Assembly (NCBI GenBank): GCA_021324115.1 | Contig: JAJPJS010000008.1 | Span: 270,160 to 334,159 of the forward strand | DNA from: Nitrososphaerota archaeon | GTDB lineage: Archaea > Thermoproteota > Nitrososphaeria > Conexivisphaerales > DTJL01 | Reading direction: 5' to 3' | Length of the DNA stretch: 64,000 bases | Part shown: piece by piece, positions 40,818-59,224 of the stretch | Layout of the letters: every line of letters starts with the position of its first letter | Numbering within the stretch: position 1 is the stretch's first letter | Notes under the pieces: generated by a model | What the model was told of the DNA's origin: nothing | Seen by the model: the letters and a program-made list of their open reading frames with translations, nothing else | Databases searched by the model: none | Program-made: the position numbers and the translations under genes

Positions 40818-43049
40818 TTGATTCGAAGAGGGCTGGGAAAAGGGGCGTCCATAGGTGCTGTTCTTGTAGCTGCAATCCTCGTCATAAGCATATTTTTTGT
40901 CGTAACGACATTTCGCACCACACACGTCCAGGAGCCGGTCTGCACATCGTCCGATCCAAGGGTGGCAGACCCTAAGGCTCCCCATGGCCTTTTCGTCAAT
41001 GCGGCGAACAGCCCCCAATCGCTGAGCAATGAAAGCGAGATCCTGAAGTACATTCTACCCGACTCCACAGTGTGCGGCGCGAACCTGATCATACCTTGGA
41101 GCAGCATCGATATGGGACCTGGCGCAAACCCCAGGTACAACTGGGCGTTTGTGGATCAGTCCGCAGAACCCTGGATAAAGGCGGGCAAGATTGTCAATTT
41201 CATCGTCTGGGGTGCGGCGGAGCAGACATCACAGGAGTACAACGGAACCTCAATGACACCTTCATACGTCCTTAAACAGGTTGATACCGTGAAATGTGGC
41301 CCTGACCCCATCACTCCTGTATACTGGGAGGCTGGCTACCTTGACAATTACGAAGCTTTCATCCAGGCCCTTGTCCAGCATTACGGCAACGCGCCCTGGC
41401 TCGGGTACATCCGCTTTGGAATCGGGACCGGGGGAGAGGACTACCCGGAAAACGGATTCGACCTGTCTCCCTGCCTTTCACTCTGGCAATCCCATGGTTA
41501 TTCGATGGAGCTCTGGCAGAACTACTCGCTTCAGCTCATGAAATTCGAATACAGCCTGGGTTCGCCCAAGACGATACTAGTTGGTCTGAATCAGATACAG
41601 GGTCAGAACGGGGTGGCGGATGCGGTCGCAACTGCCGCGGTGAGGTATGGGTTCGGCTTTGGAATCCAGGGCTTTTCAATTAATCAGGAAAAAGTCAACT
41701 CTTCGGGCTCTCCATGTTACGCGGACTGGTGCGCCCTTTTCAAAGAATACGCAGGTAAGGTACCACTTGAGCTTCAAACCACAACACACACGTATCCAGA
41801 CGGCACGGGCGTCGGCTCGCTGGTCCAGCTGGCTCCCTTTGGTCTCGCCTCAGGCGCCCAGATCTTCGAGCTTTACCCACAGGAATGGCTCATCGCAGAT
41901 GATCCATCATTTCCTGGATACACCCAGTATCATGCGGCATACTCAGAGGCGCTTGACCAGATGGCCTCCGTAGTTGGATATTCTGCATCGAATGGAACTT
42001 CTTTTTCACTTGGATACTCGGTCCCTCCTTACACCGTGGTTGGCAACAGAATACTGGACGGCTGGAACAGAACCTTCGTTCCATATGGCGTCGAGCTTCC
42101 CAGCCTCTGGATTCCCAACTGGCACAACAATCAGCTCATGCAGCTCGATGCCAGCATACTCGAGAATCAGACTGTTTACTCGGATGCCAGATATTTCTGG
42201 CACTCGAATACTGTGGTTGTCAAGGTGGCTTCTGAGGACCTGTTCGACCAGTCTCCATATGATGCTTCCTACCTTCATATCATAGATACCATCGTGAGCG
42301 AGACGCATGATTATGATCTTAACCTTATAATCGCCCTCCAGTATGAATCGACCACAAAACAGCCCCTGCCGACTCAGGATAGTGAAAGCTTCTGGAAGCT
42401 TCTGTCATCAAGATATTATAACGATTCATGGGTGTTCTTCGACCTGTTCAACGAACCTCGGAGTCCGTTTGGTGTGGACAACTCGACAGCGTGGAACATG
42501 TGGAGGGATGGAGGGACATATGCGGGAACAAACTACATCGGAATGCAGAACCTCGTGGACATCGTCCGTTCAAACCATGCACAGAACCTTGTGTTCGTAG
42601 ACGGCCTTGCAGCGGGAGAAGACCTCAATGGAGTTCCGGGGCACATGCTGAGCGGTCAAAACATAATCTATGCGGTTCATCCTTACTTTGGTCCTTTACA
42701 TGATAATGAGAGTGAATGGAACTTCTGGTTTGGTGACGCGGCCAAATCCATCGACGCGCCGGTCGTCGCCGATGAATGGGGAGAGTATCAGTCATCGACG
42801 CATGGGGAATGTATTGCATCTGCCCCGGTTCTGGTCCCTCAATTTCTGCAGTACTTGAAAGATCTTAACATTGGTGTGATTGGATATGGGCTCTACCCCG
42901 GGATACTGATCAGGGGCTGGAATTTTACGGCCCCCACTTCGTTTGACCAATCGCCATATACCTGTCCGGACACCACCTTCCCGAATCTGAACACGGATGC
43001 TCAGGGGGTGGGCGTGCTTCTTGTATCATACTTCAGCGCAAACGACTGA
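40818..43049 (+). CDS. Membrane-anchored extracellular glycosidase with two barrel domains (C-terminal GH5-like)
   Basis: A 743-residue protein with an N-terminal signal-anchor (about 9-29, ASIGAVLVAAILVISIFFVVT). Residues about 45-400 look like a first barrel with LGYIRFGIGTGGEDYPENGF, whose Glu near 207 could be an acid/base. Residues about 440-730 are a GH5-like barrel: acid/base Glu in VFFDLFNEPRSPF (about 544) and nucleophile Glu in VVADEWGEY (about 652), with YAVHPYFGP between. Many sequons support extracellular location. It probably cleaves a beta-glucan or similar polysaccharide outside the cell. Start TTG at 40818. Confidence 0.8.
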   Translation: MIRRGLGKGASIGAVLVAAILVISIFFVVTTFRTTHVQEPVCTSSDPRVADPKAPHGLFVNAANSPQSLSNESEILKYILPDSTVCGANLIIPWSSIDMGPGANPRYNWAFVDQSAEPWIKAGKIVNFIVWGAAEQTSQEYNGTSMTPSYVLKQVDTVKCGPDPITPVYWEAGYLDNYEAFIQALVQHYGNAPWLGYIRFGIGTGGEDYPENGFDLSPCLSLWQSHGYSMELWQNYSLQLMKFEYSLGSPKTILVGLNQIQGQNGVADAVATAAVRYGFGFGIQGFSINQEKVNSSGSPCYADWCALFKEYAGKVPLELQTTTHTYPDGTGVGSLVQLAPFGLASGAQIFELYPQEWLIADDPSFPGYTQYHAAYSEALDQMASVVGYSASNGTSFSLGYSVPPYTVVGNRILDGWNRTFVPYGVELPSLWIPNWHNNQLMQLDASILENQTVYSDARYFWHSNTVVVKVASEDLFDQSPYDASYLHIIDTIVSETHDYDLNLIIALQYESTTKQPLPTQDSESFWKLLSSRYYNDSWVFFDLFNEPRSPFGVDNSTAWNMWRDGGTYAGTNYIGMQNLVDIVRSNHAQNLVFVDGLAAGEDLNGVPGHMLSGQNIIYAVHPYFGPLHDNESEWNFWFGDAAKSIDAPVVADEWGEYQSSTHGECIASAPVLVPQFLQYLKDLNIGVIGYGLYPGILIRGWNFTAPTSFDQSPYTCPDTTFPNLNTDAQGVGVLLVSYFSAND

Positions 43050-43097: not shown

Positions 43098-43955
43098 ATG
43101 CGAACTACAGGAAAAAGTCGAAGTAGAGGGCGGGACACAAGGAAAACCTCCCCGAATTTCATAATAAACGATTTCAGGCTGTTCGTTCGGGCCAAGCTGG
43201 ATTCGATATCGGGATACGCCCAGATCGACACCGGAGCCGTATCAACGATGATTGCATCCTCTGTCGCAGATCCATTCAAAAAGATCGGAGCTTCGACGCT
43301 GCGGGGCGCATTTGGAGAGTTAAGAACGGAGTTGGTCGCCGTCGGATGTGTGAAACTTCTGGGTTCGACATTCCGCAACATCAGAGCACGGGTACAGCCG
43401 GACGAGCATGCGGGATTCACGAAGTTACCGTTTAAAGCCATAATGACTGCAGGAGTCGACCTTCTTTTTGCAAGTGAAAGAATACTGCGGCTGGATTTCA
43501 GACGAAGCTCCGCGTTTTATGTGTCAGACTCTGCAGAGAAACCTTCTGCGCATTGGGAAAACTCCGTTCCCTTTCATTTTATGACTCCTTATCGACTTGT
43601 TGTCTTACGGTCGGAAATGGGAAACACAGAACTCGGAAGCACTCTCTTCGATACCGGTGCAGGATTTTCTGTTCTGAATTCAGATAGGTTCGATGAGCTC
43701 GCCCCTCACCTGAAAAAGGAGGAATCCATCGAAACCACTGACCCGACAGGAGGAAAGGCAAAGATCCCGGTGTTCAGACACGACGGCTTTCAAATCGGCG
43801 GTGTCCAGTTTGGCACCGTGCGATTCTTGGTAATAGACCTTGCATCCGTCGAAAAGGTGCTGCATGGAAAAGTGGATTTCATACTTGGCCTTGACACAAT
43901 GCTAGATCATACTTGGACGATAAACCTCTCCTTGCAGAAGCTCTGGTGGTGGTGA
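43098..43955 (+). CDS. Single-chain double retropepsin-like aspartic protease
   Basis: A 285-residue protein with two retropepsin-like halves. Half 1 has AQIDTGAVSTMI (D44) and half 2 TLFDTGAGFSVL (D185); each is followed by a beta-rich stretch, and half 2 ends with VDFILGLDTMLD, the usual ILG-D block. Two DTG motifs in one chain would form a complete active site without dimerisation. There is no signal peptide and the basic N-terminus (KSRSRGRDTRK) suggests a cytosolic protein. Bacterial-type retropepsins usually have one DTG per chain. ATG at 43098. Single gene. Confidence 0.75.
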   Translation: MRTTGKSRSRGRDTRKTSPNFIINDFRLFVRAKLDSISGYAQIDTGAVSTMIASSVADPFKKIGASTLRGAFGELRTELVAVGCVKLLGSTFRNIRARVQPDEHAGFTKLPFKAIMTAGVDLLFASERILRLDFRRSSAFYVSDSAEKPSAHWENSVPFHFMTPYRLVVLRSEMGNTELGSTLFDTGAGFSVLNSDRFDELAPHLKKEESIETTDPTGGKAKIPVFRHDGFQIGGVQFGTVRFLVIDLASVEKVLHGKVDFILGLDTMLDHTWTINLSLQKLWWW

Positions 43956-44176: not shown

Positions 44177-44704
44177 TCAGAGTCCGATCTTCTGTTTTAT
44201 CATGGATACGTCCCTCTCTATCCTGTCAAGTCTTTCATTCATCCATGATTTGAGATCGTTTCTTAGGCTTCTTATTTCAGTGAGAGTTTCCTCCTGCTTC
44301 CCTATAATCGTCTTTATATCGCCCTTCATTTCTTTGATATCGCCCTTCATCTCTTTAATGTCACCCTTCATTTCTTTGACGTCACCCTTCATCTCCACAC
44401 CTGTAACTGCGATTTTGACAAGTTGTTCTGAATTGAATTGTTCTCTGAACTCTCTCAATCGCATCACAGTTCCGTCATAGGGTTCAGATTTAACTCCCGA
44501 TACTGAGGCGGAAGGTGGAATCTCCTTTTTCACAGAATCCAAGAACCTGTTGACCGAATCGCCGTCTCCTTCGATCAAGACAACAAGGCCATTTCCTTCG
44601 TTGTATGCTTCGAATCCTTCGAGTTCTCTGGCCTTGGTCATCAGGAATAGTCTGTACCCAACCTCTTGGACGTTGGTTCCCTCGATTGCTATCCTGACCT
44701 TCAT
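44177..44704 (-). CDS. Acylphosphatase domain fused to coiled coil (copy 1)
   Basis: A 175-residue protein from the ATG at 44704. Residues 1-90 form an acylphosphatase-like domain: IEGTNVQEVGYRLFL with the phosphate-binding Arg, then EGFEAYNEGNGLVVLIEGD with the expected Asn. Residues about 100-175 are a coiled coil with four EMKGDIK heptads (21-bp DNA repeats) and ERLDRIERDVSMIKQKI. The frame opens at a TTG four codons earlier, but a palindromic TATA box at 44728-44737 favours a leaderless ATG. A similar fusion occurs at 51311-52234. Confidence 0.8.
   Translation of the reverse strand: MKVRIAIEGTNVQEVGYRLFLMTKARELEGFEAYNEGNGLVVLIEGDGDSVNRFLDSVKKEIPPSASVSGVKSEPYDGTVMRLREFREQFNSEQLVKIAVTGVEMKGDVKEMKGDIKEMKGDIKEMKGDIKTIIGKQEETLTEIRSLRNDLKSWMNERLDRIERDVSMIKQKIGL
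44320..44403. repeat. Tandem 21-bp coding repeats (heptad EMKGDIK)
   Basis: Four units of 21 bp (TCGCCCTTCATTTCTTTGATA-type on the plus strand) starting at 44320, 44341, 44362 and 44383, each encoding one coiled-coil heptad on the minus strand. Such repeats can change copy number and so coil length. Confidence 0.85.
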
Positions 44705-45197
44705 TTTCCGAGACAATAAAATCGTGACTTATATAAGAACCTCCCGTTAGCCCTCTTCAGAGGAACCTTCAGAGTTAATGATCGAAAAGATTTGTTATTT
44801 TCTCCAGGCGCAGGGAAAGTTGTGGATTCCATGCTCTGAATACGTCTCTTGACAACGCTAAACCACGGTCTTGCCTTCCTCTTTCCCACTAATTCTCCCC
44901 CTATTGCTCTGCTCTCATTCAGATGGGCATCGGTCACCTCAGGTGAAGGTAAAACTGAATTATTTTATCCGGCTTCAGATTAAACAAAACCTGGGCTTGT
45001 TTTAATCTGTACAGGTCCGTGCTATACTGCCTCCATACAGATACCATGAACAGAACCTTCATCTCCAAGCACTGGAAAACTCACTTTTGAAACCCGCAGT
45101 ATAAAGCAATGCTTATCTCACCACAAAGTTATTCGGCAAAACCGCTGCTACAAAATGCATAAATACACTCGATTCTTTCCACGCAAACACTAACAGA
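44705..45197. other. Intergenic region between divergent genes
   Basis: About 490 nt. It holds the promoter of the acylphosphatase gene (44728-44737) and a TATA-like GCATAAATAC near 45155-45165 for the plus-strand hypothetical gene. A 78-codon minus-strand frame (44701-44937) overlaps that promoter and has no domain features. No RNA gene recognised. Confidence 0.45.
44728..44737 (-). promoter_or_regulatory. TATA box for acylphosphatase/coiled-coil gene 1
   Basis: CTTATATAAG, centred about 28 nt before the ATG at 44704, consistent with a leaderless transcript. Confidence 0.55.
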
Positions 45198-45593
45198 TTG
45201 CAGCCCAGCCTCAAAGTCTCAAATGAAAGGACTAAAGCAAAATCCCTGCTGGGTGTTCTCGAATCTGTCAAGAAGAGATTGATAAGGCAGCACGTCTATC
45301 ACAGGGCTCTCAGCCCCAGCGAACGAGGGATAATTCACCTTGTTGAAAGGCTCTCCGTGAATCCACAGGGTTACCCAATCATAAAGGCACTCGTGGGCAT
45401 AATATCGAAGGCCCGGGCCTGGCTAAGGCCATCAAAATATCAGAGAGCGATGGTTGCCGGAAGAGAGCTTGCAAGGAAGAATTCCCTAGCTGCAGTTGGG
45501 TGGGGGCTAGAAGAAGCGGAATCCTGGGCGCTGGACAGGTCCTACATTCTTTTCCTTGGCTGGAATAGCCTTGCTTCGGCATGGCACGGGTAG
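45198..45593 (+). CDS. Hypothetical protein
   Basis: A 131-residue basic protein starting at TTG 45198, about 37 nt after a TATA-like box. It contains LLGVLESVKKRLIRQHVYHRALSPSERGIIHLVERL and ends with ARKNSLAAVGWGLEEAESWALDRSYILFLGWNSL. It appears helical; no TM segment or known family is evident. The frame has normal composition for the region and a promoter in the right place, which supports a real gene. Confidence 0.55.
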   Translation: MQPSLKVSNERTKAKSLLGVLESVKKRLIRQHVYHRALSPSERGIIHLVERLSVNPQGYPIIKALVGIISKARAWLRPSKYQRAMVAGRELARKNSLAAVGWGLEEAESWALDRSYILFLGWNSLASAWHG

Positions 45594-45690
45594 CGGATGG
45601 GATGGTAAGAAAAGAAACTGATACCCGTGTTCCATCCAGCTGTCCCGACTTTTACCGAACATTAACTAAGAGGAACAATCCAACTGATGA

Positions 45691-46161
45691 ATGATGAAGT
45701 CTGCTCCGCTCCTGATTCTTCTATTTTTACTGGTCTCAGGTACGCCCCTAGTTGTATTTGCGGCCTCCACATCGGATGGTGCCGCACTCTCATCTATACA
45801 GAACGCATTCGCGCAGGTGAGCCTGGCCGAGTCCAAGGGCGCAAACATCACCCTTCAGGTGCAGGAGCTGAATCAGGCTCTGCAGCTCGTGAGCCAGGGG
45901 GAAGCGATTCAGCAGTCGAACGTTACCCTGGCTTCCCAGTATTACTCACAGGCGGAGTCAATAGCCGCGCAGGTGCAGCAGCAGATTCCCCAGTCAATCG
46001 CACAGGGGCAGGCTGCCGCCACACTGAGCCTGCAAGAACTGTCGGCATTTCTCGGGGTCCTGGCGCTGGCGGGCGTTCTGGTCTATCTTTTCACGGGGAG
46101 GGTGCTCTGGAGGCTGTGGCTTCGTCAGCACAGGGACTGGACTGTAAAGAGGGGGGAGTAA
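45691..46161 (+). CDS. Small exported helical protein with C-terminal TM anchor
   Basis: A 156-residue protein: signal peptide (LLILLFLLVSGTPLVVFAA), a Gln/Ala-rich helical outside part (LQVQELNQALQLVSQGEAIQQ) and a C-terminal TM helix (FLGVLALAGVLVYLFTGRVLW) with a basic tail. It begins the MoxR/DUF58 surface operon, 3 nt ahead of the next gene. No family recognised, but small Gln-rich exported proteins of this layout accompany such clusters here (compare 36713-38587 and 48312-50210). Confidence 0.75.
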   Translation: MMKSAPLLILLFLLVSGTPLVVFAASTSDGAALSSIQNAFAQVSLAESKGANITLQVQELNQALQLVSQGEAIQQSNVTLASQYYSQAESIAAQVQQQIPQSIAQGQAAATLSLQELSAFLGVLALAGVLVYLFTGRVLWRLWLRQHRDWTVKRGE

Positions 46162-46164
46162 GCA

Positions 46165-46650
46165 ATGATAGAAGACCAGATAAAGGGAGTGCTTCTCGCC
46201 GTCATTCTGCTTCTCGGACTCATAGGGGCGGCCCAGTATTACTACAGCCACACCACCTCCGAACCATTTCCGGAGCTGGGCATACTCGGGCCGAACCAGA
46301 AGATAGGTGACTACCCCACGAATGTTCTTGCCGGTCAGAACTTTACCCTATACCTTTACGTTGGAAATCATGAAGGGCATGTCGAATACTTCAACGTCCT
46401 GGTGAAGCTAGGAAACAACGACTCGGTTGTGAATGGAACAAATGGCATGAACGCACCAGTTCTAGCCACCTACAGAATCATCCTGGAGAACAACCAGACA
46501 TACCTGGAACCCATAACCCTCAGCCTTCCCAACCCGGGGCAGAACATCAGGATGGTGTTCGAGCTGTGGACCTACAACACTTCAACCAATACCTTCACCT
46601 ATGACTACATCTACAACCAGCTCTGGGTCAACGTGACGGGCGTGGTCTGA
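46165..46650 (+). CDS. DUF1616-type exported domain protein
   Basis: A 161-residue protein with one N-terminal TM helix (VLLAVILLLGLIGAAQYYY) and an outside beta domain: FPELGILGPNQKIGDYPTNVLAGQNFTLYLYVGNHEGHVEYFNVLVKLG, with many sequons. The FxELxILGPxxxxxxYP...V.aGe pattern is that of the DUF1616 extracellular part. In relatives it is fused to the multi-TM part, here encoded by the following gene, so the family appears split in two. Confidence 0.75.
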   Translation: MIEDQIKGVLLAVILLLGLIGAAQYYYSHTTSEPFPELGILGPNQKIGDYPTNVLAGQNFTLYLYVGNHEGHVEYFNVLVKLGNNDSVVNGTNGMNAPVLATYRIILENNQTYLEPITLSLPNPGQNIRMVFELWTYNTSTNTFTYDYIYNQLWVNVTGVV

Positions 46651-46654
46651 AAAT

Positions 46655-47239
46655 ATGTCTCTTTCAAAATCTGTTCTTTCACAGCTCAAGACAACCAGCA
46701 GGGTGGAGGACATCGTCCAATCCGTATCCGAGCAGACCGGCGAGAAGCCCGAAGAGGTTGCGAAGGAGCTATACCAGCTTGCGGAGATGAAGAAGGTGAT
46801 ACTTGTGGAACCCACGCCGCCGGCGGGGCTGATCGACTACCTTAAGAGGCCATACGGAGCCTGGGTCTCTGTCATTCTTCTTTTCATGGCCCTCACTCTG
46901 GCATCGATCTACCTTATACCCCAGTACCCTCCATTCATATACTTGAGGTACATTTCGGGGGCACTCTTTGTGCTTTATGTTCCCGGCTATTCACTCATAG
47001 AGGCGCTTTACTCGAAGGCTGATGAACTGGACCAGCTCGAAAGGCTGGCACTTTCCATCGGCCTCAGTCTCGCGCTCGTCCCACTCGTCGGCCTGGTGCT
47101 GAACTACACCCCCTGGGGGATAAGGCTGGTCCCGATACTGGTTTCGCTGATCCTGCTTACCTTTGTCCTGACGTTGGTGGCCGCTTACAGGAAGCTGGGC
47201 TACGTCAAGCTCTCTTCAAGGGCGCTTGCATCAAAGTAA
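46655..47239 (+). CDS. DUF1616-type membrane protein with N-terminal helical domain
   Basis: A 194-residue protein. Residues 1-60 look like a small winged-helix-like or helical domain (QLKTTSRVEDIVQSVSEQTGEKPEEVAKELYQLAEMKKVIL); the rest has four TM helices with RYISGALFVLYVPGYSLIEALY and LDQLERLALSIGLSLALVPLVGLVLNYTPWGI, the DUF1616 membrane core. It is 4 nt after the exported partner gene. Function unknown; the family clusters with surface polymer genes in archaea. Confidence 0.78.
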   Translation: MSLSKSVLSQLKTTSRVEDIVQSVSEQTGEKPEEVAKELYQLAEMKKVILVEPTPPAGLIDYLKRPYGAWVSVILLFMALTLASIYLIPQYPPFIYLRYISGALFVLYVPGYSLIEALYSKADELDQLERLALSIGLSLALVPLVGLVLNYTPWGIRLVPILVSLILLTFVLTLVAAYRKLGYVKLSSRALASK

Positions 47240-47260
47240 AGGGAATTAGCGTCTTCCTGC

Positions 47261-48010
47261 TTGCAAGGAAATTATCAGTCCGCTGGCGCCATTCTGCTGG
47301 GCTTTGGAGCGGTCCTTTCCATTGTTTCGTACAGCCTGCTGCAGAATATCCCCCTTACAGCACTCGGACTGGGTTCTGTAATCGTGGGGATCGCCTCACT
47401 CATGCTTCCCCCGAACCCAATTCCAAGCAGCCTGGTGAGGGAGATGCTCCAGAATTCTGCGACGAACATCGAGGCGGTGCTCGAAGAATTCGGCGTAAAG
47501 GGAAAGGCGATGTACCTTCCTCCCAGGGAAGGCAGGGTTACAGCATTCATCACACTGGAGGAAAGACCCGTGGTTGAAATCGCTTCGTCGGCAGGCGAGG
47601 TGCCGCTGCGTGTGCTGAGCATGGCATCCGGCTCAAGAGGTGTAACGATATTTCCGCCCGGTTCCGAGCTTCCGAAGTCTCAGGAAGCCCACTCAGAGGG
47701 AAGCAACGAAGACTTCCTAAGGACGGTGCTGGTCGACACATCAGAGCTTGTAAGGTCTGTGAAGAGCAATACTCTGGGGGACACAGAAGTGGTGGAGATA
47801 AAGGGCGCAAAGAGCATCCCAAACCTCCCCAGGTTCAACCACTGCTTGGGCTCACTGCCGTCAAGCATCGCTGCATCCGCGCTGGCATACAAAACGGGCA
47901 GAAGGGTGGTGATCGACTCGGAGGATGTGAACGGCACAGACATTCTCCTGATACTCAGGACGTTCGGCCAGTCAGCCGACCGACCAAAGACGGAGGGAAT
48001 GATCGACTGA
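47261..48010 (+). CDS. Conserved archaeal membrane-anchored protein of MoxR cluster
   Basis: A 249-residue protein with two N-terminal TM helices (AGAILLGFGAVLSIVSYSLL, LGLGSVIVGIASLMLPP) and a cytoplasmic domain with KAMYLPPREGRVTAFITLEER and VTIFPPGSEL. The sequence fits uncharacterised archaeal proteins found near MoxR/DUF58 genes; I cannot name the family with confidence. TTG start at 47261. Confidence 0.65.
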   Translation: MQGNYQSAGAILLGFGAVLSIVSYSLLQNIPLTALGLGSVIVGIASLMLPPNPIPSSLVREMLQNSATNIEAVLEEFGVKGKAMYLPPREGRVTAFITLEERPVVEIASSAGEVPLRVLSMASGSRGVTIFPPGSELPKSQEAHSEGSNEDFLRTVLVDTSELVRSVKSNTLGDTEVVEIKGAKSIPNLPRFNHCLGSLPSSIAASALAYKTGRRVVIDSEDVNGTDILLILRTFGQSADRPKTEGMID

Positions 48011-48072
48011 ATAAACGAACAGAGCGCCTAATCGAATTGAGAATGGCAAGGATATAGCAGGGACACATTGTA

Positions 48073-48315
48073 TTGGAAAGGAATAACCTGTATCTTCTCA
48101 CACTCTCTGGACTGATGGCCCTGAGCACGGTCTCGATGGCGGCGCTGGGCCAGCAGGACCTTGATGTTTACGTGAGCCTTTTTGTTATATCCTACTTTGC
48201 CACTTCCGCGATATTCTCACCCAGAAGAAGAACCTTCGACTTCCTCGGAGCGGGCCTTTTCGTTGTGTTCTCGATCATAGTCGCCCTCAGGGTAATAGCA
48301 ATACTTGGTGTGTGA
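48073..48315 (+). CDS. Small three-helix membrane protein
   Basis: An 80-residue protein with hydrophobic helices at about 6-24, 30-47 and 57-78 and an SPRRRTFDFLG loop. TTG start at 48073; its stop overlaps the GTG of the next gene (GTGA), showing cotranslation. No family recognised. Confidence 0.65.
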   Translation: MERNNLYLLTLSGLMALSTVSMAALGQQDLDVYVSLFVISYFATSAIFSPRRRTFDFLGAGLFVVFSIIVALRVIAILGV

Positions 48316-50210
48316 TCCTGAGGAGGCCGCTCGCCCTGGTTCTTGCGGTTTCTGTGATTGTCGTAGCAACAGTTTCGGCCGTCTACGCAAATTCACCCCC
48401 CAGGCAGGTGGACCCCAGCACAGTGCAGCAGCAGAATCCTTACCCTCCCGACCTGCTTTCCTTTTACGCAAATTTAGTCCGTTCACTTGGGGCTGGCAAC
48501 TTCAGTCTGGCACTGTCGGAGCTTAACAGCACGGGTCTCATACAGGTCCCTGCCCAGCTCCAGTTCGTCTACTCGAGGTTCAATTCCCTGCTGTCCCAGG
48601 CGACCCGACAGCTGCAGCAGGTCAACTCTTCGATTCAGTCGGCCAACTCCTACCTTTCCTATGCCGACTTTTCGTCCGCCAACTCCTCGATATTAGCCGG
48701 ATACGTTGAACTGTCGGAAGCGAACCTCTCTGTCGTCTCCCTTCAGACAGCCGCCCCTCAGATGGAGAGCAGCTTTGGCCTTCCCACAGGCCAGCTTCAG
48801 GGGCAGGTGAACGACCTGTCGAAACTGATATCATCTTACAAGATATCGCTGGACACACTTTCCCTCAGGCTCGACTCGCTGGAATCCCAGATACAGTCGG
48901 GCGCACTTCACTTCACACGAATTTCGCTGTCATCTTCTTCCACATCCGTGAAGCTCGGGAGCCCAGTGACATTGACCGGAACCCTTTCACTTGACAACGG
49001 TACGCCACTTTCCGGCAAAAGCATATCCCTGCTTTCCTCCCTGGGATCGGTGTCAACCGTGACCACAGGCCCGGGTGGCTCATTCAGCTACAACACATCC
49101 ATCCCGTTTGTGTATTCCAGGTCCGTGACGTTCCAGGCCAGATATTCACCATCCGGAAATGACGTATCATTTTACCTTCCCTCTCAGTCCGATGTTGTCT
49201 ATCTTAACCTCGTCTTCTATCAGCCGGTACTCTCCCTGAACGGGCCCCGCACCCTGCTTCCGGGCGGTACCTACAACTTCTCGGGATCCTACGAAAACGG
49301 CTCCTCACAATCCAGCGTCGTCATAACCGCGTTTGGAAGGACTTACTCCGAGAATACATCAAACGGAGGCCATTTCTCGATCAATCTTACGGTGCCGACC
49401 TCGGTCCCGGACGGGGCATATTCAATTCAGGCTCAAACTCCTTCTCATGGCCTATTCGCGCCCGCATCCCAACAGATATCTGTCAACGTTCAGAGGCTCA
49501 AGGCGTCTGTAACCGTCTCGGTTCCACCATTCGTTGTGGGTGGTGAAACGATAGCAGTCTACGGAAGCGTGGCTTCGTCCAACGGCACATACCTTGCCGG
49601 CTCCGAAGTGTCCGTCTCCTTCTCAGGTGTAACTGCAAATACAAACACTTCAAAGAGTGGAAACTTCGTCGTTTCCATCCCCGTCCCCCTGCTGGTGGGC
49701 TCGGGTTCCAACCACCTTACCGTAGTCGCGGCGCCAACGCAGCCATGGGTTTCTGCGGCTTCCACTTCGGTCAGCACATTTGCCATTGACCCGCTGACGG
49801 TTGTGGTGCCGGTCATTCTCCTGCTCGCAGCCGCCGTCGTCTACAGGCAGCGTCGTGCCATCGTGCCGCCATCAGAAGAAGGGGTGGAATCAGCCAAGTC
49901 GGCAGGTCCGATTCAATCCCCAATCTCCACGGAACATGAAATAAAGGCGGAGGCGAAGGCGAGGTCAGAGCTCACCCAATCCTACTTCGATGTCGTAGGA
50001 CTTCTCTCGGTCAAAGGATTTCGCATGAAGCCTTCCATGACACCTTCCGAGTTCTCGGATATCGTATCGTCCGGGCTGCCAGTAATATCAAACGAGTTCA
50101 GGACGCTAACAACTGCGTTCGAGGATGAAGTATACGGATTCGGAGCGAGCGAAGACGCGACGCATGAATCCCTAGCCCTAGCCAGATACATAATGGAGAA
50201 GCTGCGGTAG
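48312..50210 (+). CDS. Surface protein with Ig-like repeats and C-terminal DUF4129-like domain
   Basis: A 632-residue protein with a signal peptide (PLALVLAVSVIVVATVSAVYA), a helical outside region (about 30-200), two to three beta-sandwich repeats (about 205-490; VKLGSPVTLTGTLSLDNGTPLSGKSI, LLPGGTYNFSGSYENGSSQSSVVI, VGGETIAVYGSVASSNGTYLAGSEV), a TM helix (about 497-515) and a cytoplasmic DUF4129-like tail (SYFDVVGLLSVKGFRMKPSMTPSEFSDIV). DUF4129 tails usually occur with transglutaminase or MoxR/DUF58 genes, as here. GTG start overlaps the preceding stop. Confidence 0.8.
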   Translation: MILRRPLALVLAVSVIVVATVSAVYANSPPRQVDPSTVQQQNPYPPDLLSFYANLVRSLGAGNFSLALSELNSTGLIQVPAQLQFVYSRFNSLLSQATRQLQQVNSSIQSANSYLSYADFSSANSSILAGYVELSEANLSVVSLQTAAPQMESSFGLPTGQLQGQVNDLSKLISSYKISLDTLSLRLDSLESQIQSGALHFTRISLSSSSTSVKLGSPVTLTGTLSLDNGTPLSGKSISLLSSLGSVSTVTTGPGGSFSYNTSIPFVYSRSVTFQARYSPSGNDVSFYLPSQSDVVYLNLVFYQPVLSLNGPRTLLPGGTYNFSGSYENGSSQSSVVITAFGRTYSENTSNGGHFSINLTVPTSVPDGAYSIQAQTPSHGLFAPASQQISVNVQRLKASVTVSVPPFVVGGETIAVYGSVASSNGTYLAGSEVSVSFSGVTANTNTSKSGNFVVSIPVPLLVGSGSNHLTVVAAPTQPWVSAASTSVSTFAIDPLTVVVPVILLLAAAVVYRQRRAIVPPSEEGVESAKSAGPIQSPISTEHEIKAEAKARSELTQSYFDVVGLLSVKGFRMKPSMTPSEFSDIVSSGLPVISNEFRTLTTAFEDEVYGFGASEDATHESLALARYIMEKLR

Positions 50211-51197
50211 TTGAACATCTGGAAGGCCTCCGCACTGGGCGTGGCTGTCGGAATAATTGTTTCCATGGGATTGATCGTTCTGATTCCGGCATCCGACAAC
50301 TACGACCTGCAGAATCCATACTGGAACGGAATGACCACACTTCGAAGCGAATTCAGAATCACTCCTCTCACGAATCTTTCTTCACTGGCCGAGCAACTAC
50401 CGTTTGCGAGCAACGATGCCCTTCTGGTCATAGGCCCAACCCTGACATACTCCCAGTCAGATGCAAACCTGATTCGGAGCTTTGCAAATGCAGGAGGGCT
50501 CGTGGTCATAGCGGACGACTTCGGAAGCGGCAACCAGCTTCTTGGTCTGATTGGGTTGAAATCCAGGTTCGCAGGCCCGTTGCTCGTCGACCCTCTTTAC
50601 AACATAAAGGCCGAGCAGTTACCTATAATCACACAGGTTTACCTCCCCGGTGTGCACCAGTTGGCCTTCGACTACGCCACATACCTTAACGTGTCTGACC
50701 CATCTTCGCAAGTACTCGCCTATTCCTCCCCGTTCAGCTTTGCCGACCTTCAGCAGACCGGCAGATATGTGAACACCGACCCACTTGGTCCCTTTCCCGT
50801 GGTTGCATCGATTCACCTTGGCAGGGGCAGGATTGTCCTGATATCGGATTCGAGTCTTTACCTGAACGCGATGATAGACCAGACAGACAACCTGGCATCA
50901 TTCGCCACGATACTGGGGGGGAGGCAGCCCTTCATCGACACGTCACACTGGGCGTACAGCGGCACCACGCAGGCAAAACAGCTTCTTGTTTACGCGTACG
51001 ATGTGGCATCTTCGCTGGACCTGAAGTATGCCATAATCGTGGCTGCGGGCCTGTTTGTTACACTGATCAAGGTTGGGACCAAATCTGCGTCCCTTCCTGT
51101 CGAATCTGCGGAAAAGCTATCCCGGCTGCATCCTGACTGGGACGGCAGAGAGCTGCAGCGGCTGGCGAAGGAAAGGTCTCTGCGGCCAACTAGTTGA
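50211..51197 (+). CDS. DUF4350-domain membrane protein
   Basis: A 328-residue protein with an N-terminal TM helix (SALGVAVGIIVSMGLIVLI), a GATase-like outside domain (LLVIGPTLTYSQSDANLIRSFANAGGLVVIADDFGSGNQLL, then GRGRIVLISDSSLYLNAMI), and a C-terminal TM helix (YAIIVAAGLFVTLI). This matches DUF4350 proteins that accompany MoxR and DUF58 genes. TTG start directly after the TAG of the DUF4129 gene. Confidence 0.85.
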   Translation: MNIWKASALGVAVGIIVSMGLIVLIPASDNYDLQNPYWNGMTTLRSEFRITPLTNLSSLAEQLPFASNDALLVIGPTLTYSQSDANLIRSFANAGGLVVIADDFGSGNQLLGLIGLKSRFAGPLLVDPLYNIKAEQLPIITQVYLPGVHQLAFDYATYLNVSDPSSQVLAYSSPFSFADLQQTGRYVNTDPLGPFPVVASIHLGRGRIVLISDSSLYLNAMIDQTDNLASFATILGGRQPFIDTSHWAYSGTTQAKQLLVYAYDVASSLDLKYAIIVAAGLFVTLIKVGTKSASLPVESAEKLSRLHPDWDGRELQRLAKERSLRPTS

Positions 51198-51265
51198 AAT
51201 ACTCATGAACAAACCCAAACGACCAATCCCCTCTTTTGGCTGATTTCGTTCCGATAAATAACGGG

Positions 51266-51275
51266 TTTATATATA
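51266..51275 (+). promoter_or_regulatory. TATA box for acylphosphatase/coiled-coil gene 2
   Basis: TTTATATATA about 36 nt before the ATG at 51311. It indicates that the gene has its own promoter within the MoxR cluster and supports the ATG at 51311 over the TTG at 51236. Confidence 0.5.
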
Positions 51276-51310
51276 CCGGCCAACTGTATTATCAGGAAGG
51301 TCTGCTCCGG

Positions 51311-52234
51311 ATGGGTGTGGTTTCGAAAAAACTAATCATAACCGGAAGGGTTCAGAGGGTGGGATACCGTAGATTCATTCTTGAAACTGGCCAGGCCACC
51401 GGTGTGGGCGGATATGCGAAGAATGAACCTGACGGATCAGTATCAGTTGTTGTTCAGGGTGAGGAGGAGAATGTGAAGGAGTTTATCGAAAAGATCAAAG
51501 TCCCTCCCGAGCCACCACTGGTTTCAAAGGTCACGGAGCAGGAATCCAAACCTGTTCCCAATCTGAAATACTTTAGGATAAAGTTCGGGAGTTACGCCGA
51601 GGAACTACAGGAGGGATTGGGGGCCATGGAATCGCAGTTCATGGACTATCGTCACGAATTCAGGGGCTTCCATGATGAATTTAGAGACTTTCGCCAGGAA
51701 TTCAGGGATTACCGCCAAGAATTCAAGGGTTTTGCCTCGCGCACAGATGCAAACTTCGATAAGCTTGGTAACAAGATAGACACACTCTCAGAACAAACGA
51801 AATCTGGTTTCGATATACTAGGTAACAAGATAGACACACTCTCAGAACAAACGAAATCTGGTTTCGAAATGTTAGGTAACAAGATAGACAAATCTTCCGA
51901 GCAAACAGGCGCGGGGCTTAAAGCTGTAAGTGACAAGATAGATGCTTTCTCCGAACAAACCAACTCGAACTTCAAGAACTTGGATGCCAGGTATGGCGAA
52001 ATATCCGCGAAACTGGCTCAGATTCTGGACGCCCTGCAGAGGCAGCAGGAAAATTATCAGAAAGAATCTCAGGAAAGCCGCGTCGAACTGAGGCGTTCAG
52101 TGGATAACCTTTCAAGACTTGTGGACAAACTGATTGAAAAGTTGGATAGTGGTGGAACGGCTCGTTTTCCTCCTGGACAGTCTGACCAGAACTCGCACGG
52201 GACGACTCCTCCTGTGGCACCATCCACTCCGTAG
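51311..52234 (+). CDS. Acylphosphatase domain fused to long coiled coil (copy 2)
   Basis: A 307-residue protein. Residues 1-95 are an acylphosphatase domain with complete signature: IITGRVQRVGYRRFI (catalytic Arg) and GVGGYAKNEPDGSVSVVVQG (catalytic Asn). Then come heptads HEFRGFHDEFRDFRQEFRD, four 18-residue units of the LGNKIDTLSEQTKSGF type and a further coiled coil (LRRSVDNLSRLVDKLIEKL), ending in a Pro/Gly tail. The coil probably mediates oligomerisation. It lies between DUF4350 and MoxR genes. Confidence 0.82.
   Translation: MGVVSKKLIITGRVQRVGYRRFILETGQATGVGGYAKNEPDGSVSVVVQGEEENVKEFIEKIKVPPEPPLVSKVTEQESKPVPNLKYFRIKFGSYAEELQEGLGAMESQFMDYRHEFRGFHDEFRDFRQEFRDYRQEFKGFASRTDANFDKLGNKIDTLSEQTKSGFDILGNKIDTLSEQTKSGFEMLGNKIDKSSEQTGAGLKAVSDKIDAFSEQTNSNFKNLDARYGEISAKLAQILDALQRQQENYQKESQESRVELRRSVDNLSRLVDKLIEKLDSGGTARFPPGQSDQNSHGTTPPVAPSTP
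51767..51874. repeat. Tandem 54-bp coding repeat (18 residues)
   Basis: Two units starting at 51767 and 51821 are identical over the first 47 bp; diverged units follow from 51875 and about 51929. The near identity points to a recent duplication lengthening the coiled coil by 18 residues. Confidence 0.85.
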
Positions 52235-52274
52235 CACTTTGCAACACCTACTTCATACAGTAATTCCCCGGTAG

Positions 52275-53249
52275 ATGGAAGGTAAATTGCCCGACCGAAC
52301 GATCAGCGCAATGGCCACCCGTGTCAGGGAAAGGGTTCAGGCCCGGGTCGTGGGAAGAACCCAGGTGATCGACCTGATGCTTGCATCATTGATCGCGGGA
52401 GGTCATGTCCTTCTTGAGGGTCCGCCTGGTGTCGGAAAGACCACTCTTGCCAAGTCGTTCGCATCTGCAATAGGCGGATCATTCAAAAGAATACAGCTTA
52501 CCCCCGACCTGCTCCCTGCCGACATAACCGGTACCGCAATATACGACAGCTCCAAGAAGGAGTTCATCCCCAGAAAGGGTCCGATATTTGCGAACGTCGT
52601 GATGGCGGACGAAATGAACAGGGCGAGCCCCAGGACCCAGTCTGCATTTCTTGAGGCGATGCAGGAAAGGCAGGTCACGATAGACGTGAACACGTATTCA
52701 CTTCCGGCACCATTCATGGTGATAGGTACCCAGATTCCTGAGGACACTGGAGGGCTGTACCCCCTGACGCGCACTCAGATAGACAGGTTCGCGCTTAAAC
52801 TAGACCTCGGGTTGCCAACGCCTGAGGAGGAAGACGAAATACTCTCCAAATCAGACGAATCGGAAGGGGCCGAGAAGGACCCGCCTTCAAGCGGGTCTTC
52901 CCAGGTGCTCGAGGAGGTGACCAGGCTTTCGAACGAATCCACCAACATGATGGTTTCAGAGGGGGTCAGGAGGTACATCTTAGACCTGGTTGCAGGGGCG
53001 CGAAAGGTATCCATAACTCCCGGAATGCCTGGCCCCAGAGCCTCGATTTGGCTCTACAGGATATCCAGGTCAATCGCCATGCTCAGGGGCAGGAATTATG
53101 TGCTCCCTGACGACGTAAAATATGTGGCAGTACCTGTTCTGGTGCACAGGCTTTCTCCCCTGTATGCGGAGGGGGGTGCCGCTTCGGTGGAGCGTGCAGT
53201 CGCAAGCGTAACAAAGCTGGTCGAAGAAACGCCGGTACCGAAGGAGTGA
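52275..53249 (+). CDS. MoxR-family AAA+ ATPase
   Basis: A 324-residue AAA+ chaperone-like ATPase. Walker A LEGPPGVGKTTLAKSF at about 50-60, Walker B VVMADEMNRASPRTQSAFLEAMQERQV, sensor 1 MVIGTQIPED and the arginine-finger region LTRTQIDRFALKLDL. GPRASIWLYRISRSIAMLRGRNYVLPDDV is the C-terminal lid. MoxR proteins assist maturation of a partner complex; the DUF58 gene overlaps its stop by 4 nt. Confidence 0.95.
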   Translation: MEGKLPDRTISAMATRVRERVQARVVGRTQVIDLMLASLIAGGHVLLEGPPGVGKTTLAKSFASAIGGSFKRIQLTPDLLPADITGTAIYDSSKKEFIPRKGPIFANVVMADEMNRASPRTQSAFLEAMQERQVTIDVNTYSLPAPFMVIGTQIPEDTGGLYPLTRTQIDRFALKLDLGLPTPEEEDEILSKSDESEGAEKDPPSSGSSQVLEEVTRLSNESTNMMVSEGVRRYILDLVAGARKVSITPGMPGPRASIWLYRISRSIAMLRGRNYVLPDDVKYVAVPVLVHRLSPLYAEGGAASVERAVASVTKLVEETPVPKE

Positions 53250-54493
53250 CGGCAGTGGCAAAGATCGGCTTCACGGAAAGGGGCAAAAAATTTATCCTTA
53301 TTTCATGCTCAATCGTCGCAGTTGGCACCTTCTTCATAGACTATATCATAATAGCCTTGGGAATCGCCCTTCTTGCATTTGCTTCATACTCCCTGTTCGA
53401 CGCGCGCAGGCTTTTGAACGAACATGCGGTTGCAGGTTTAGGTTCTGCTCGATACATCACCACGGCCGGAACTCCTGTCGAACTTGAATTATACACAAAC
53501 GGATTATCCAGATGGAAAGGTTCCATAAAGGAAGCGCCGGAGTTCGGGGAGTTCATGCTTAACGGGGATTCGCTGAAGATTTCCGGCACAATCCCCCTAG
53601 CTTCTCTTCGTCAACTCAGAAACCTCACCGTAACAAGAAGGAGCTACTATGAACTCTACGAAGCCAGGAAGATGGTAGCTCTTGAACCTCCAGCAGAGGT
53701 TCTCGTATACCCACGCTTTGTGGTGCCTCTGTACAGACTGTTTGGTTATGAAGAGCTGGGTGAATTCAACGAGCCCTCGGTGGCCAGGATAGCCGTGGCC
53801 AGCACCGGGGAGTACGCGGGCACAAGGAACTACTACGCGGGAGACGAGCTGCGCTTCATAGACTGGAAGGCAACCGCAAGGTCACAGGAACTCAAGCTGA
53901 AAGAGTTCACATCCGAAAATGCCGGTTCATTCAACATGGTGCTCGACACAACATCCACGGACGCGGTCTCCGCGGACCTCCTCGCAACGCAGTTCCTGAG
54001 TTCATTGGTCGACCTTCTTGACAGGGGTGCCCGTGTGAAGGTCACATTTTATGATGGATTTAAATACCAGCTGGTGAAACCGAGACATATCTACAGCGAG
54101 ACGGCCGAAGCCGTGCTTTCCATGACAGGCAAGTACTTCCCAGAGATAGGCAGGATAATCGACCTTCCTGTACGGAGATGGAGCATGCCTGAACTGGAAA
54201 ATGAACCAACGAAGGAGCCGGTACAAGGGATTCCCGAGTCCGGCAGGACGATCGTGGTTTCCCAGCTGCTGAGCGACATCCCGGACGACCTGGCCAGGAA
54301 TCCGGATACCGTTGAGGTCGTTTTGCAGCCGACACGGCCCTGGCTTTACATCGAGAGCCTGGAGGATGCCTACCTGGCGAAGAATCGCGTGACCAGGAAC
54401 GTAGAGTCGCTCAGACGCGCCGGTGTTAAGGTAATGGAAGCTGGCTCTCCGGTCGAACCCCCTCCGGCTTCGGTTGCTCCGTTGAATCGGTGA
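53246..54493 (+). CDS. DUF58-family protein
   Basis: A 415-residue protein with two N-terminal TM helices (FILISCSIVAVGTFFIDYIIIALGIALLAFASYSLF) and the DUF58 signature TRNYYAGDELRFIDWKATARSQELKLKEF at about 193, then a VWA-like domain (FNMVLDTTSTDAVSADLLATQFLSSLVDLLDRGARVKVTFYDG). GTG start overlaps the MoxR stop. MoxR/DUF58 pairs are thought to act on surface or membrane complexes; the neighbouring exported proteins are likely clients. Confidence 0.93.
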   Translation: MTAVAKIGFTERGKKFILISCSIVAVGTFFIDYIIIALGIALLAFASYSLFDARRLLNEHAVAGLGSARYITTAGTPVELELYTNGLSRWKGSIKEAPEFGEFMLNGDSLKISGTIPLASLRQLRNLTVTRRSYYELYEARKMVALEPPAEVLVYPRFVVPLYRLFGYEELGEFNEPSVARIAVASTGEYAGTRNYYAGDELRFIDWKATARSQELKLKEFTSENAGSFNMVLDTTSTDAVSADLLATQFLSSLVDLLDRGARVKVTFYDGFKYQLVKPRHIYSETAEAVLSMTGKYFPEIGRIIDLPVRRWSMPELENEPTKEPVQGIPESGRTIVVSQLLSDIPDDLARNPDTVEVVLQPTRPWLYIESLEDAYLAKNRVTRNVESLRRAGVKVMEAGSPVEPPPASVAPLNR

Positions 54494-54499
54494 GGTTGG

Positions 54500-55126
54500 T
54501 TGTCAGCCGAAGAGCTATCGGGTATTTCCGGCTATCTTTCCGAGTCAAAGTCAGTGATAGACAGGATCGACCGGGGCTCCATCAGGGCTGCCACCGACCT
54601 GCTTGTGGACGCCTGGAGGAGAAATGCGCAGGTGTTCATCGCGGGCAACGGAGGCTCTGCCTCCACCGCCACACACTTTGCGTGCGACCTCAACAAGTGG
54701 GCGTCCCAAGATGCTGAGCGAAGGTTCAGGGCGTTCGCTCTTGTCGACAACATCCCTCTCGTCTCGGCCCTGACGAACGACAACGGGTTCAACAACGTAT
54801 ACTCGGAGCAGCTTGAAAACTTCTTCCGGAAGGGGGACGTGTTCATAGCGATATCGGTTCACGGAGGGTCGGGGAAGGACAGTGCCGACCTCTGGAGCCA
54901 GAACCTCCTCAAGGCCGTCGACTTCGCCAAGAGCAAGGGAGGCTTCACGATCGCACTGGTAGGGTTCGATGGAGGAGTGCTCAAGGGGATTGTGGATGCC
55001 TGCGTTCTCGTGCCGGCAAATTCAACCCCGCAGGTGGAGGGTCTTCATCTGGTGCTCACACATCTCATATGCGACGAGATAAGGAAGAAGATCGTACCCC
55101 CCGAGAAAATTGATAAAAGAAGATGA
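54500..55126 (+). CDS. gmhA: Sedoheptulose-7-phosphate isomerase (phosphoheptose isomerase)
   Basis: A 208-residue SIS-domain enzyme converting sedoheptulose 7-phosphate to D-glycero-D-manno-heptose 7-phosphate. GNGGSASTATHFACDL is the phosphate loop, ALTNDNGFNNVYSEQLE and ISVHGGSGKDSADL are conserved SIS blocks, and PQVEGLHLVLTHLICDEI holds the GmhA Glu/His pair. TTG start 6 nt after the DUF58 gene. It is the first step of the heptose route encoded in the next 7 kb. Confidence 0.9.
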   Translation: MSAEELSGISGYLSESKSVIDRIDRGSIRAATDLLVDAWRRNAQVFIAGNGGSASTATHFACDLNKWASQDAERRFRAFALVDNIPLVSALTNDNGFNNVYSEQLENFFRKGDVFIAISVHGGSGKDSADLWSQNLLKAVDFAKSKGGFTIALVGFDGGVLKGIVDACVLVPANSTPQVEGLHLVLTHLICDEIRKKIVPPEKIDKRR

Positions 55127-55212
55127 AATCTGAACATCGTCCACGCATCCTCTGTAAAATCCCCTCACCTCATTCGATAAACTAAATATTCCCACCCCTC
55201 CTGATATTAAAC

Positions 55213-56385
55213 ATGATAAAAACAACCATGACGGGGAGCTGGTTCAGGCCCAAGGAGATTCTAGAACTCCTTGACCCCGGAAAGACACCCACAGGAGAGA
55301 TATCCGAAAAATATGCTTCTGTGGTGGAAGCGGCCGAAAGACGGGCGATCAGGGACCAGCTTCACCCTCTAGGTTCTCCGAAAGGGCTGAACTGGGTGAG
55401 CAACGGAGAGCAGAGGAAGGCTGGGTACACATTCTTCATACCAAACAGGTTTCATGGCTTCTCTTCGAAGGAAAGGGTCACGATGGAGTTTCCTGCCACC
55501 CTGGTTGAGGAATGGATGGAATCCAATCCATCCGTGCTTCAGCTGAGGCAATCGGCTGCCTCCTTCTCCGTCCCGAAGATAGAGTCGAAACTCGAGTACC
55601 ACGGAGAAGCGTTTGCAAGAAAGGAGGCACAGGATACCCTCAGGCTCGCAAAGGAGGAAGGGGCAGAAAGAGTGTTCGTAAACACACCATCACCGGGCGT
55701 CATAACGATATTCTTCCCCCGAAGCGAGGTGTATCGGGACCACTACGACTATCTCTTTGGTCTTGCGAAAGAACTGAGGAAGGAGTATCAGGCGCTGCTA
55801 TCTGTAGATGGAATTGACATCCAGATAGATGCTCCCGATCTGGCTATGGGGAAGCAGACGGGGAGCTGGGGCGTGGACTTCTATGAAGCGCTGCCTCATC
55901 ATGTGGACGCGCTGAACGAAGCCATAGAGGGGCTTCCTCAGGAAAGGATCCGGGTTCATTACTGCTACGGAAACTGGAACGGCTCACACAGGTTCGACGC
56001 GGATTACAGAAGGGTCCTCGAACAGGTTCTCAGGCTCAAGGCGGGCACGATCGTGGGCGAAATGGCCAACCCGAAGCACCAGGGTGACGCGCTCATACTT
56101 GAGGATTACCTGAAGGAGCATGACTGGCCCAGAAATATGAAGCTCGCCGCAGGTGTCATAGACGTGAAGAGCCCCATAGTCGAGTCGCCCGAAACGGTGG
56201 CTGCCAGGCTCGAAAGGCTCGCCAAATTGGACAAGCTTGGGCCGGATAGGCTGCTGGGCGGCACCGACTGTGGGTTTGAAACATTCGCCTCGATGGGCAA
56301 TGTCACGTACCAGGTGGGCCTGCAGAAGCTCAAAAGCCTCTCCGAGGGCGCCGCGCTACTTTCCGAGAGACTGCATCTGAACTAG
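55213..56385 (+). CDS. MetE-like (cobalamin-independent methionine synthase C-terminal family) protein
   Basis: A 390-residue barrel protein of the UROD/MetE superfamily. MTGSWFRPKEIL starts the barrel; VDGIDIQIDAPDLAMGK, IRVHYCYGNWNGSH (His and Cys zinc ligands), TIVGEMANPKHQGD (Glu) and LGGTDCGFETF (Cys) complete the zinc/homocysteine site. It is longer than the ~310-340-residue archaeal MetE cores and lacks the N-terminal half of bacterial MetE. Methyl transfer to homocysteine is the family reaction; a different thiol acceptor is possible. It lies between gmhA and gmhB without evident metabolic link. Confidence 0.82.
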   Translation: MIKTTMTGSWFRPKEILELLDPGKTPTGEISEKYASVVEAAERRAIRDQLHPLGSPKGLNWVSNGEQRKAGYTFFIPNRFHGFSSKERVTMEFPATLVEEWMESNPSVLQLRQSAASFSVPKIESKLEYHGEAFARKEAQDTLRLAKEEGAERVFVNTPSPGVITIFFPRSEVYRDHYDYLFGLAKELRKEYQALLSVDGIDIQIDAPDLAMGKQTGSWGVDFYEALPHHVDALNEAIEGLPQERIRVHYCYGNWNGSHRFDADYRRVLEQVLRLKAGTIVGEMANPKHQGDALILEDYLKEHDWPRNMKLAAGVIDVKSPIVESPETVAARLERLAKLDKLGPDRLLGGTDCGFETFASMGNVTYQVGLQKLKSLSEGAALLSERLHLN

Positions 56386-56402
56386 CCACCCCATTACTAC
56401 AA

Positions 56403-57029: not shown

Positions 57030-57066
57030 ATGAACATTAATAAATAGGAGACATTGTTCGATTATC

Positions 57067-59209: not shown

Positions 59210-59224
59210 GAGGACAATATACCT

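Follow-up and report, generated by a model that had tools for sequence, protein, structure and literature searches.

Why would an acylphosphatase (AcP), ordinarily a stand-alone enzyme of about 90 residues, be joined to a long helix built of tandem repeats? The question is raised by two genes, gene 1 (protein P0001, positions 44177-44704) and gene 2 (protein P0002, positions 51311-52234), in a 64,000-nucleotide stretch of contig JAJPJS010000008.1 (positions 270,160 to 334,159) from a Nitrososphaerota archaeon; we refer to this whole stretch as the window. What acylphosphatases do physiologically is poorly understood, and a family of AcPs fixed to a stalk, with recurrent gene neighbors, is a handle on where at least one AcP branch acts. 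Our preferred explanation, held tentatively and rated just short of even, is that both genes belong to a widespread archaeal family in which an AcP-fold head may be carried on a self-associating helical stalk of variable length.

Two Fusion Genes

The features of the two genes are as follows; types A and B are subfamilies described below, and tandem arrays were found with Tandem Repeats Finder (TRF).

44177-44704, minus strand: AcP-coil gene 1, type B, P0001, 175 residues (open reading frame and translation; Pfam Acylphosphatase, PF00708, 41.3 bits; AlphaFold model)
44471-44695, minus strand: AcP domain of gene 1 (residues 4-78), with R18, E14 in the phosphate loop and N35 off by one
44311-44392, minus strand: 21-bp tandem array, 4.0 copies, encoding KGDIKEM heptads with an I/M core (TRF, 87% matches)
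44730-44736, minus strand: TATA-like element of gene 1, 26-32 nt 5' of the ATG
51267-51273, plus strand: TATA-like element of gene 2, 38-44 nt 5' of the ATG
51311-52234, plus strand: AcP-coil gene 2, type A, P0002, 307 residues (open reading frame and translation; PF00708 76.4 bits; AlphaFold model)
51329-51580, plus strand: AcP domain of gene 2 (residues 7-90), with R20, N38 at the canonical position and the loop Gly replaced by R16
51617-51742, plus strand: aromatic-core heptads of gene 2 (residues 103-144), F/Y at a and d
51677-51725, plus strand: 21-bp tandem array, 2.3 copies (TRF, 78% matches)
51755-51890, plus strand: 54-bp tandem array, 2.5 copies, 18-residue units (TRF, 92% matches)

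The original prediction, made from the letters of the DNA, described both genes as fusions of an AcP domain to a coiled coil, each with its own promoter. Both frames are open and both proteins score above the PF00708 cut-off of 22.5 bits, so the fusion is upheld; at 175 and 307 residues, with long C-terminal helices, neither has the length of a stand-alone AcP. Pfam scans of P0001 and P0002 gave no further enzymatic domain (for P0002, among the best 25 of 56 weak matches). The genome of the window (G000) holds three AcP genes, namely the two fusions and one stand-alone copy with an open frame of 112 residues. Separate promoters are borne out by a TTATATA upstream of each ATG; this motif occurs five times in the window against 2.64 expected, and three of the five matches lie at gene 1 or gene 2, two being one overlapping palindrome.

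Structure prediction places a helix at residues 105-172 after the AcP domain of P0001 (AlphaFold model m71f0594d9dcf; mean predicted local distance difference test, pLDDT, 82.9; predicted template modeling score, pTM, 0.46), and helices at residues 95-195 and 202-280 after that of P0002 (model m5056765ee699; mean pLDDT 85.1, pTM 0.45). The modeled head of P0002 can be assigned to the AcP fold with high confidence; it aligns with Pyrococcus horikoshii AcP 2w4d at a VIA-align Z of 17.5 and a root-mean-square deviation of 1.2 over 90 residues. In both proteins a heptad pattern of hydrophobic a and d positions runs within a continuous predicted helix. The predicted coiled coils therefore stand as long helices with a heptad pattern; the coil in its oligomeric sense is something we infer, as AlphaFold modeled a single chain.

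A Stalk Made of Heptads

Tandem arrays are present in 76 of 102 fusion gene entries, and in 73 a period is a multiple of 21 bp; without L002 and L003, which duplicate the window genes, 71 of 100 distinct fusion genes have such arrays. Gene-period counts are divisible by 3 in 151 of 159 cases, and no TRF array was found in 45 stand-alone AcP genes. Many arrays are 100% identical in DNA (e.g., L047, L059, L144), which indicates recent expansion; with 21-bp arrays in both window genes and a 54-bp array in gene 2, the proposal of recent expansion at the DNA level holds there as well. So does the suggestion that coil length varies among relatives—in genus g28 the type A frames measure 216, 238, 270 and 281 residues, while the stand-alone AcPs measure 96 in all four genomes. 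These sequences establish a stalk made of heptads, in which DNA-level growth and shrinkage in 21-bp steps preserve the heptad register; in these arrays a minisatellite within a coding sequence is held to the periodicity of a protein fold.

The heptads differ in kind between the two genes, with an Ile/Met core in the subfamily of gene 1 and a Phe/Tyr core in that of gene 2. In type A, position a is Phe in 93% of heptads, d is Tyr in 43% or Phe in 38%, g is Glu in 72%, and e is Arg in 55%; the Glu at g and Arg at e are what a bundle with g-e salt bridges would be expected to show. When all types are scored by one method, aromatic residues fill 673 of 768 core positions (88%) in 49 type A proteins, compared with 36 of 318 (11%) in the other types, the latter taken from the 40 of 47 proteins with at least three heptads; only this between-type contrast is informative, because the scan itself chooses the hydrophobic register. 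A phmmer search for solved coil relatives of the type A stalk gave only weak matches to apolipoprotein A-I, at E values of 0.01 and worse. These long aromatic heptad stretches offer a naturally occurring system in which to examine the packing of Phe/Tyr-core helices.

A repeat array of this kind could also be a passive tail on a redundant house-keeping AcP, expanded by slippage since a charged tail that stays in frame does no harm. A stand-alone AcP of ~95-112 residues does accompany the fusions in G000, as it does in most of the 38 genomes with fusions that were searched; some fusion copies carry stop codons, and the repeats of Borg elements are described as mostly disordered (PMC9879509). 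Mere harmlessness fits poorly, however, with array periods divisible by 21 bp, and not simply by 3, as seen in 73 of the 76 entries that have an array, or with the conserved aromatic core and charged g/e flanks of one subfamily, the conserved C-terminal coil of types B and C', and the purifying selection on the AcP domain discussed below. We consider a passive tail rather unlikely.

The aromatic pattern of type A raises a different possibility, that the helix forms no bundle and binds along a polymer surface in the manner of the haloarchaeal gas-vesicle protein GvpC, which likewise has short amphipathic, aromatic helical repeats. Of 44 type A proteins, 30 match the Pfam Halo_GVPC repeat (PF05465) at E <= 0.01 (1.3e-8 at best), and two of nine type A proteins scanned singly exceed its 22.4-bit cut-off (24.5 and 25.0 bits); P0002, however, reaches 17.9 bits, under that cut-off, with no single stretch that passes. 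The Gas_vesicle family PF00741 has no match in G000, although none was found in 14 controls either, and the Ile/Met stalks of the other types do not share the aromatic pattern. GvpC is not known to have an AcP head. We read the match between type A and GvpC as a probable sharing of an aromatic helical pattern, not as membership in that family, and find a GvpC-like mode of binding very unlikely.

The Active Site of the Heads

Both window heads were predicted to have an intact Arg and Asn. The substrate-binding Arg of the VQGVXXR motif is present in both (R18 in P0001, R20 in P0002), and N38 of P0002 lies at the canonical +4 from the conserved Gly, as in 51 of 51 stand-alone domains; in P0001, N35 lies at +5, leaving the Asn of gene 1 shifted and doubtful. 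The phosphate-loop Gly (VQG) is absent from both heads, with Glu14 in its place in P0001 and Arg16 in P0002. The displaced Asn is shared by type B, where it has moved by one residue within a conserved GF(Q/E)A(R/K/Y)N motif (16 type B-like sequences compared); two sequences are exceptions, L044 with Asp for Asn, and L179 with no Gly by the pattern and the Asn still in the sequence.

Among 99 distinct fusion domains the Arg is conserved in all, and the Asn column holds Asn in 87, so the catalytic residues are retained in most homologues by alignment column; the Asn is found in every one of the 50 type A domains aligned. The loop residue in these 99 domains is Arg in 73 (a count inflated by the fetching of named loci with an Arg-demanding pattern), Gly in 13, Asp in 6, Lys in 3, Glu in 2, and a gap in 2, compared with Gly in 46 and Arg in 5 of 51 stand-alone domains. 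Nine type A members obtained from Pfam searches instead have the loop Arg in every case, and type C' retains the loop Gly in 8 of 9. The ratio of nonsynonymous to synonymous substitution rates (dN/dS) of the head is 0.05-0.41 among the listed close pairs with finite dS (0.6-0.985 identical); as judged from these rates, the head is under purifying selection.

The changes in the loop admit the reading that the head is a dead scaffold or anion sensor—a fold that merely binds phosphate or some other anion, hydrolysis having been abolished when the loop Gly became Arg (or Glu/Asp). The loop contrast between fusion and stand-alone domains would fit this, even with the Arg count inflated, as would the displaced Asn of type B and its loss in all five members of subfamily F. 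The invariant Arg, the unbroken Asn of type A, and the loop Gly of type C' speak for activity, and in E. coli (Escherichia coli) AcP the phosphate is held by the backbone amides of the loop together with the Arg (PMC13044899), a mode of binding that a side-chain change need not abolish. A dead head seems unlikely to us. For gene 1, an altered enzyme or an anion-binding module is the more likely identity, because its phosphate cradle holds an acidic residue and its Asn is displaced.

PMC13044899 also describes how, in the E. coli and P. horikoshii enzymes, the C-terminal carboxylate forms a salt bridge with the active-site Arg and locks it. In the fusions the C-terminus runs on into the linker, and therefore the stalk must exit beside the active site; it would depart from the head at the very place where, in stand-alone thermophilic AcPs, the carboxylate locks the Arg, and might thereby regulate that residue.

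Distribution and Subfamilies

The original prediction took the fusion for a lineage-specific family, which proved too narrow. A PF00708 search of 41 genomes found long-frame AcPs in several relatives, and these are recurrent AcP-heptad fusions with differing stalks. When one genome per species was scanned with a nine-member type A alignment, 549 stretches matched, of which 316 were confirmed as relatives and the best 79 loci used; 70 of these carry the fusion, six have a stand-alone or cut AcP (five bacterial, one at a contig end), and three have neither. By record title, the 79 loci include Nitrososphaerota, Thermoproteota, Bathyarchaeota, Brockarchaeota, Culexarchaeota, Methanomicrobia, Thermoplasmata, and bacteria; the fusion spans several archaeal phyla and is found in none of the five bacterial loci. 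Within 398 genomes of the phylum of the window, type A was detected in 36 (E <= 1e-28) and type B in 25 (E <= 1e-15), some by the coil alone, and both subfamilies also occur in other classes of the phylum. Fusions are often present in several copies per genome alongside a normal stand-alone AcP. No relative was found in viral contigs scanned with types A, B, and C'.

Based on junction and stalk, at least nine subfamilies can be told apart (A, B, C, C', and D to H). Type A has an EELQEGFGAMQ junction and EFRDYRQ heptads, type B has QLxKI with KGDIKEM or KQDxMLE heptads, type C has LGERSVE, and type C' has EEMVEGFSTGA with KQDQMLA; a post-head motif resembling EE[LM]xE[GR][FL] is common to most subfamilies. 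In a tree of 125 AcP domains (89 columns, with type A thinned to every second row), the split between stand-alone and fusion domains needs 5 changes, versus 39.7 in shuffles. Constraining all 74 fusions to a single origin gives an approximately unbiased test value (p-AU) of 0.106; one origin is not rejected by these alignments, nor do 89 columns show it. One candidate, the 345-residue open frame of G009 (L041), was rejected as a fusion and is a stand-alone AcP whose frame overruns another coding frame.

Relation to Known Systems

The fusions share with the stand-alone AcPs of E. coli, P. horikoshii, and S. solfataricus (Sulfolobus solfataricus) the fold, the Arg, the Asn (in type A), the position of the VQxVGYR loop, and the length of the domain; they differ in a C-terminal heptad stalk of 70-200 residues, in the replaced loop Gly (both window genes), and in being multi-copy. 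A precedent is a single table line in PMC9879509, where subfamily subfam0779 of the Red Borg is a PF00708 protein with the amino acid tandem repeat KLVEGQN. Compared by description only, the two have in common PF00708, a seven-residue tandem repeat, and a DNA unit that keeps the frame; the Borg protein belongs to one Borg element, whereas here the family is chromosomal, multi-phylum and archaeal, with several heptad types. An AcP with a seven-residue tandem repeat had been recorded once in this way, and searches of the open-licence literature brought up no account of an AcP-heptad family in archaea.

Other AcP fusions have different partners. In Thermoproteales, a SelD-like protein is fused to an AcP-like domain (PMC4210487)—an archaeal AcP fusion as well, with a SelD-like enzyme where the present family has a heptad stalk. 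A second comparison is HypF, which also has an N-terminal AcP followed by further sequence. HypF continues from its AcP domain into zinc-finger, YrdC, and Kae1-like domains. The genomes studied here contain long AcP frames of ~750-800 residues, which from their size we take to be HypF; no HypF-type domain (zinc-finger, YrdC, or Kae1-like) appeared in Pfam scans of P0001 or P0002, for P0002 among the same best 25 of 56 weak matches.

Gene Neighborhoods

The following neighbors bear on the setting of the two genes.

45198-45593, plus strand: all-helical gene of ~130 residues, no Pfam match, helical by sequence judgement only; recurrent 5' neighbor of AcP-coil genes
46165-46650, plus strand: DUF1616, C-terminal half of the profile (PF07760, 63.3 bits)
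46655-47239, plus strand: DUF1616, N-terminal part of the profile (PF07760, 98.4 bits)
48312-50210, plus strand: DUF4129 protein with Ig-like/carboxypeptidase-regulatory-like repeats (Pfam)
50211-51197, plus strand: DUF4350 protein (Pfam)
52275-53249, plus strand: MoxR-type AAA ATPase (PF07726, 183 bits)
53246-54493, plus strand: DUF58 protein (PF01882, 35.2 bits)
54500-55126, plus strand: SIS-domain sugar isomerase, gmhA-like (PF13580, 43.2 bits)

Gene 2 is flanked by DUF4350 and MoxR/DUF58, in agreement with the claim that one copy lies within a MoxR/DUF58 cluster. In three genomes of the family of the window (G000, G001, G002), a type A gene lies within or ends the block DUF1616, DUF4129, DUF4350, MoxR, DUF58, and next after the block come genes for a SIS isomerase, a HAD phosphatase, and a GHMP kinase, putatively of a heptose pathway. 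DUF1616 is found in 11 of 26 genomes, at a single locus each, and within 8 kb of an AcP-coil gene in 6 of the 11 (G000, G001, G002, G270, G365, G483, three of them from one family); the 26 genomes were chosen among fusion carriers, including some in which the link had already been seen. The subfamily of gene 2 is linked to DUF1616 and to envelope-glycan genes. The whole DUF1616-DUF4129-DUF4350-MoxR-DUF58-sugar-phosphate block occupies window positions 46165-61889 and is retained in G001 and G002, where the AcP-coil gene has a shifted place relative to MoxR/DUF58.

The helical gene of ~130 residues was first spotted as a direct or near upstream neighbor in five loci. A profile then recovered 15 distinct genes from 14 sites, each gene lying upstream of an AcP gene, with divergent orientation at two sites (the window and L143); the sites include window positions 45198-45593, L033, L040, L070, L072, L079, L086, L091, L106, L111, and L143. 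It has 27 copies in 46 genomes, up to three per genome, and 11 copies lie within 3.5 kb of an AcP-coil gene versus 0.24 expected, where 10 of the 11 sites supplied the profile; of the 17 genes that did not seed it, one (in G365) is near an AcP-coil gene. Counted by locus, it is present in 9 of 79 AcP neighborhoods versus 0.26 expected, three of the nine being already known from inspection when the profile was built. Three members scanned singly have no Pfam match at the 0.01 level, and a scan of all 14 gave scattered weak Pfam and NCBIfam matches, each in one member, and weak matches to designed proteins in the PDB. There is good evidence for the linkage of the helical gene to AcP-coil genes; as a partner of the AcP-coil protein, its product is only a lead, suggested by gene position. 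Different AcP-coil paralogues also lie in the same neighborhood in places (the window, G507, G550, G278, L083, L086, L115), for which we claim no linkage; the copies are apart in most of the fusion genomes searched.

Proposed Role

If AcP heads on self-associating stalks are the right explanation, the stalk would assemble into a bundle and present several heads jointly, their distance or avidity being adjustable. The head of gene 2 would then be an acyl-phosphate hydrolase held at a site—plausibly one of cell-envelope or glycan assembly, given its DUF1616, MoxR-DUF58, and heptose neighbors—with the helical neighbor perhaps as a partner of the gene 2 protein. A fuller version of this proposal is that AcP heads are pan-archaeal, with stalk length tuned by a minisatellite that adds heptads in 21-bp steps, and that the subfamily of gene 2 has a natural, extended Phe/Tyr "aromatic zipper" of 3 to 17 heptads and would act, together with the undescribed helical partner, at the machinery that assembles envelope glycans in thermophilic archaea; taken as a whole, we think this improbable enough to be offered as a conjecture.

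Several observations weigh against the stalk explanation. AlphaFold tends to render charged repeats as helix, and the models are of one chain with pTM values of 0.45-0.46; a Gly, a poor helix former, occurs in every KGDIKEM heptad of gene 1, and the 214 Borg repeat regions were interpreted as mostly disordered (PMC9879509). Subfamily F is without the Asn in 5 of 5 members, and neighborhoods are unconserved for most members, with no neighbor cluster in more than 8 of 79 loci. In-frame stops are found in G001 (L040, one TGA and one TAA), G066 (L146, two TAG), G498, and G473; AcP-coil copies can therefore be lost.

Other Observations

Two further subfamilies have constant positions. The short AcP-coil gene of subfamily F has a prolyl-tRNA synthetase gene on one side and Mre11-Rad50-like genes on the other in all five of its loci (L117, L119, L121, L122, L123, from Geocrenenecus and other Aigarchaeota/Nitrososphaerales; Pfam was run on one prolyl-tRNA synthetase, one Mre11-like, and one Rad50-like protein). 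Subfamily G lies directly 3' of a gene that resembles the one for the phenylalanyl-tRNA synthetase beta chain, also in 5 of 5 loci (L124, L127, L128, L133, L140, from Methanomicrobiales and a Euryarchaeota record; Pfam confirmed the neighbor for L124). Elsewhere in the window, positions 40818-43049 encode a cellulase-family (GH5) protein with a hydrophobic stretch at its N-terminus, and positions 43098-43955 encode a protein with a retroviral-type aspartyl protease domain.

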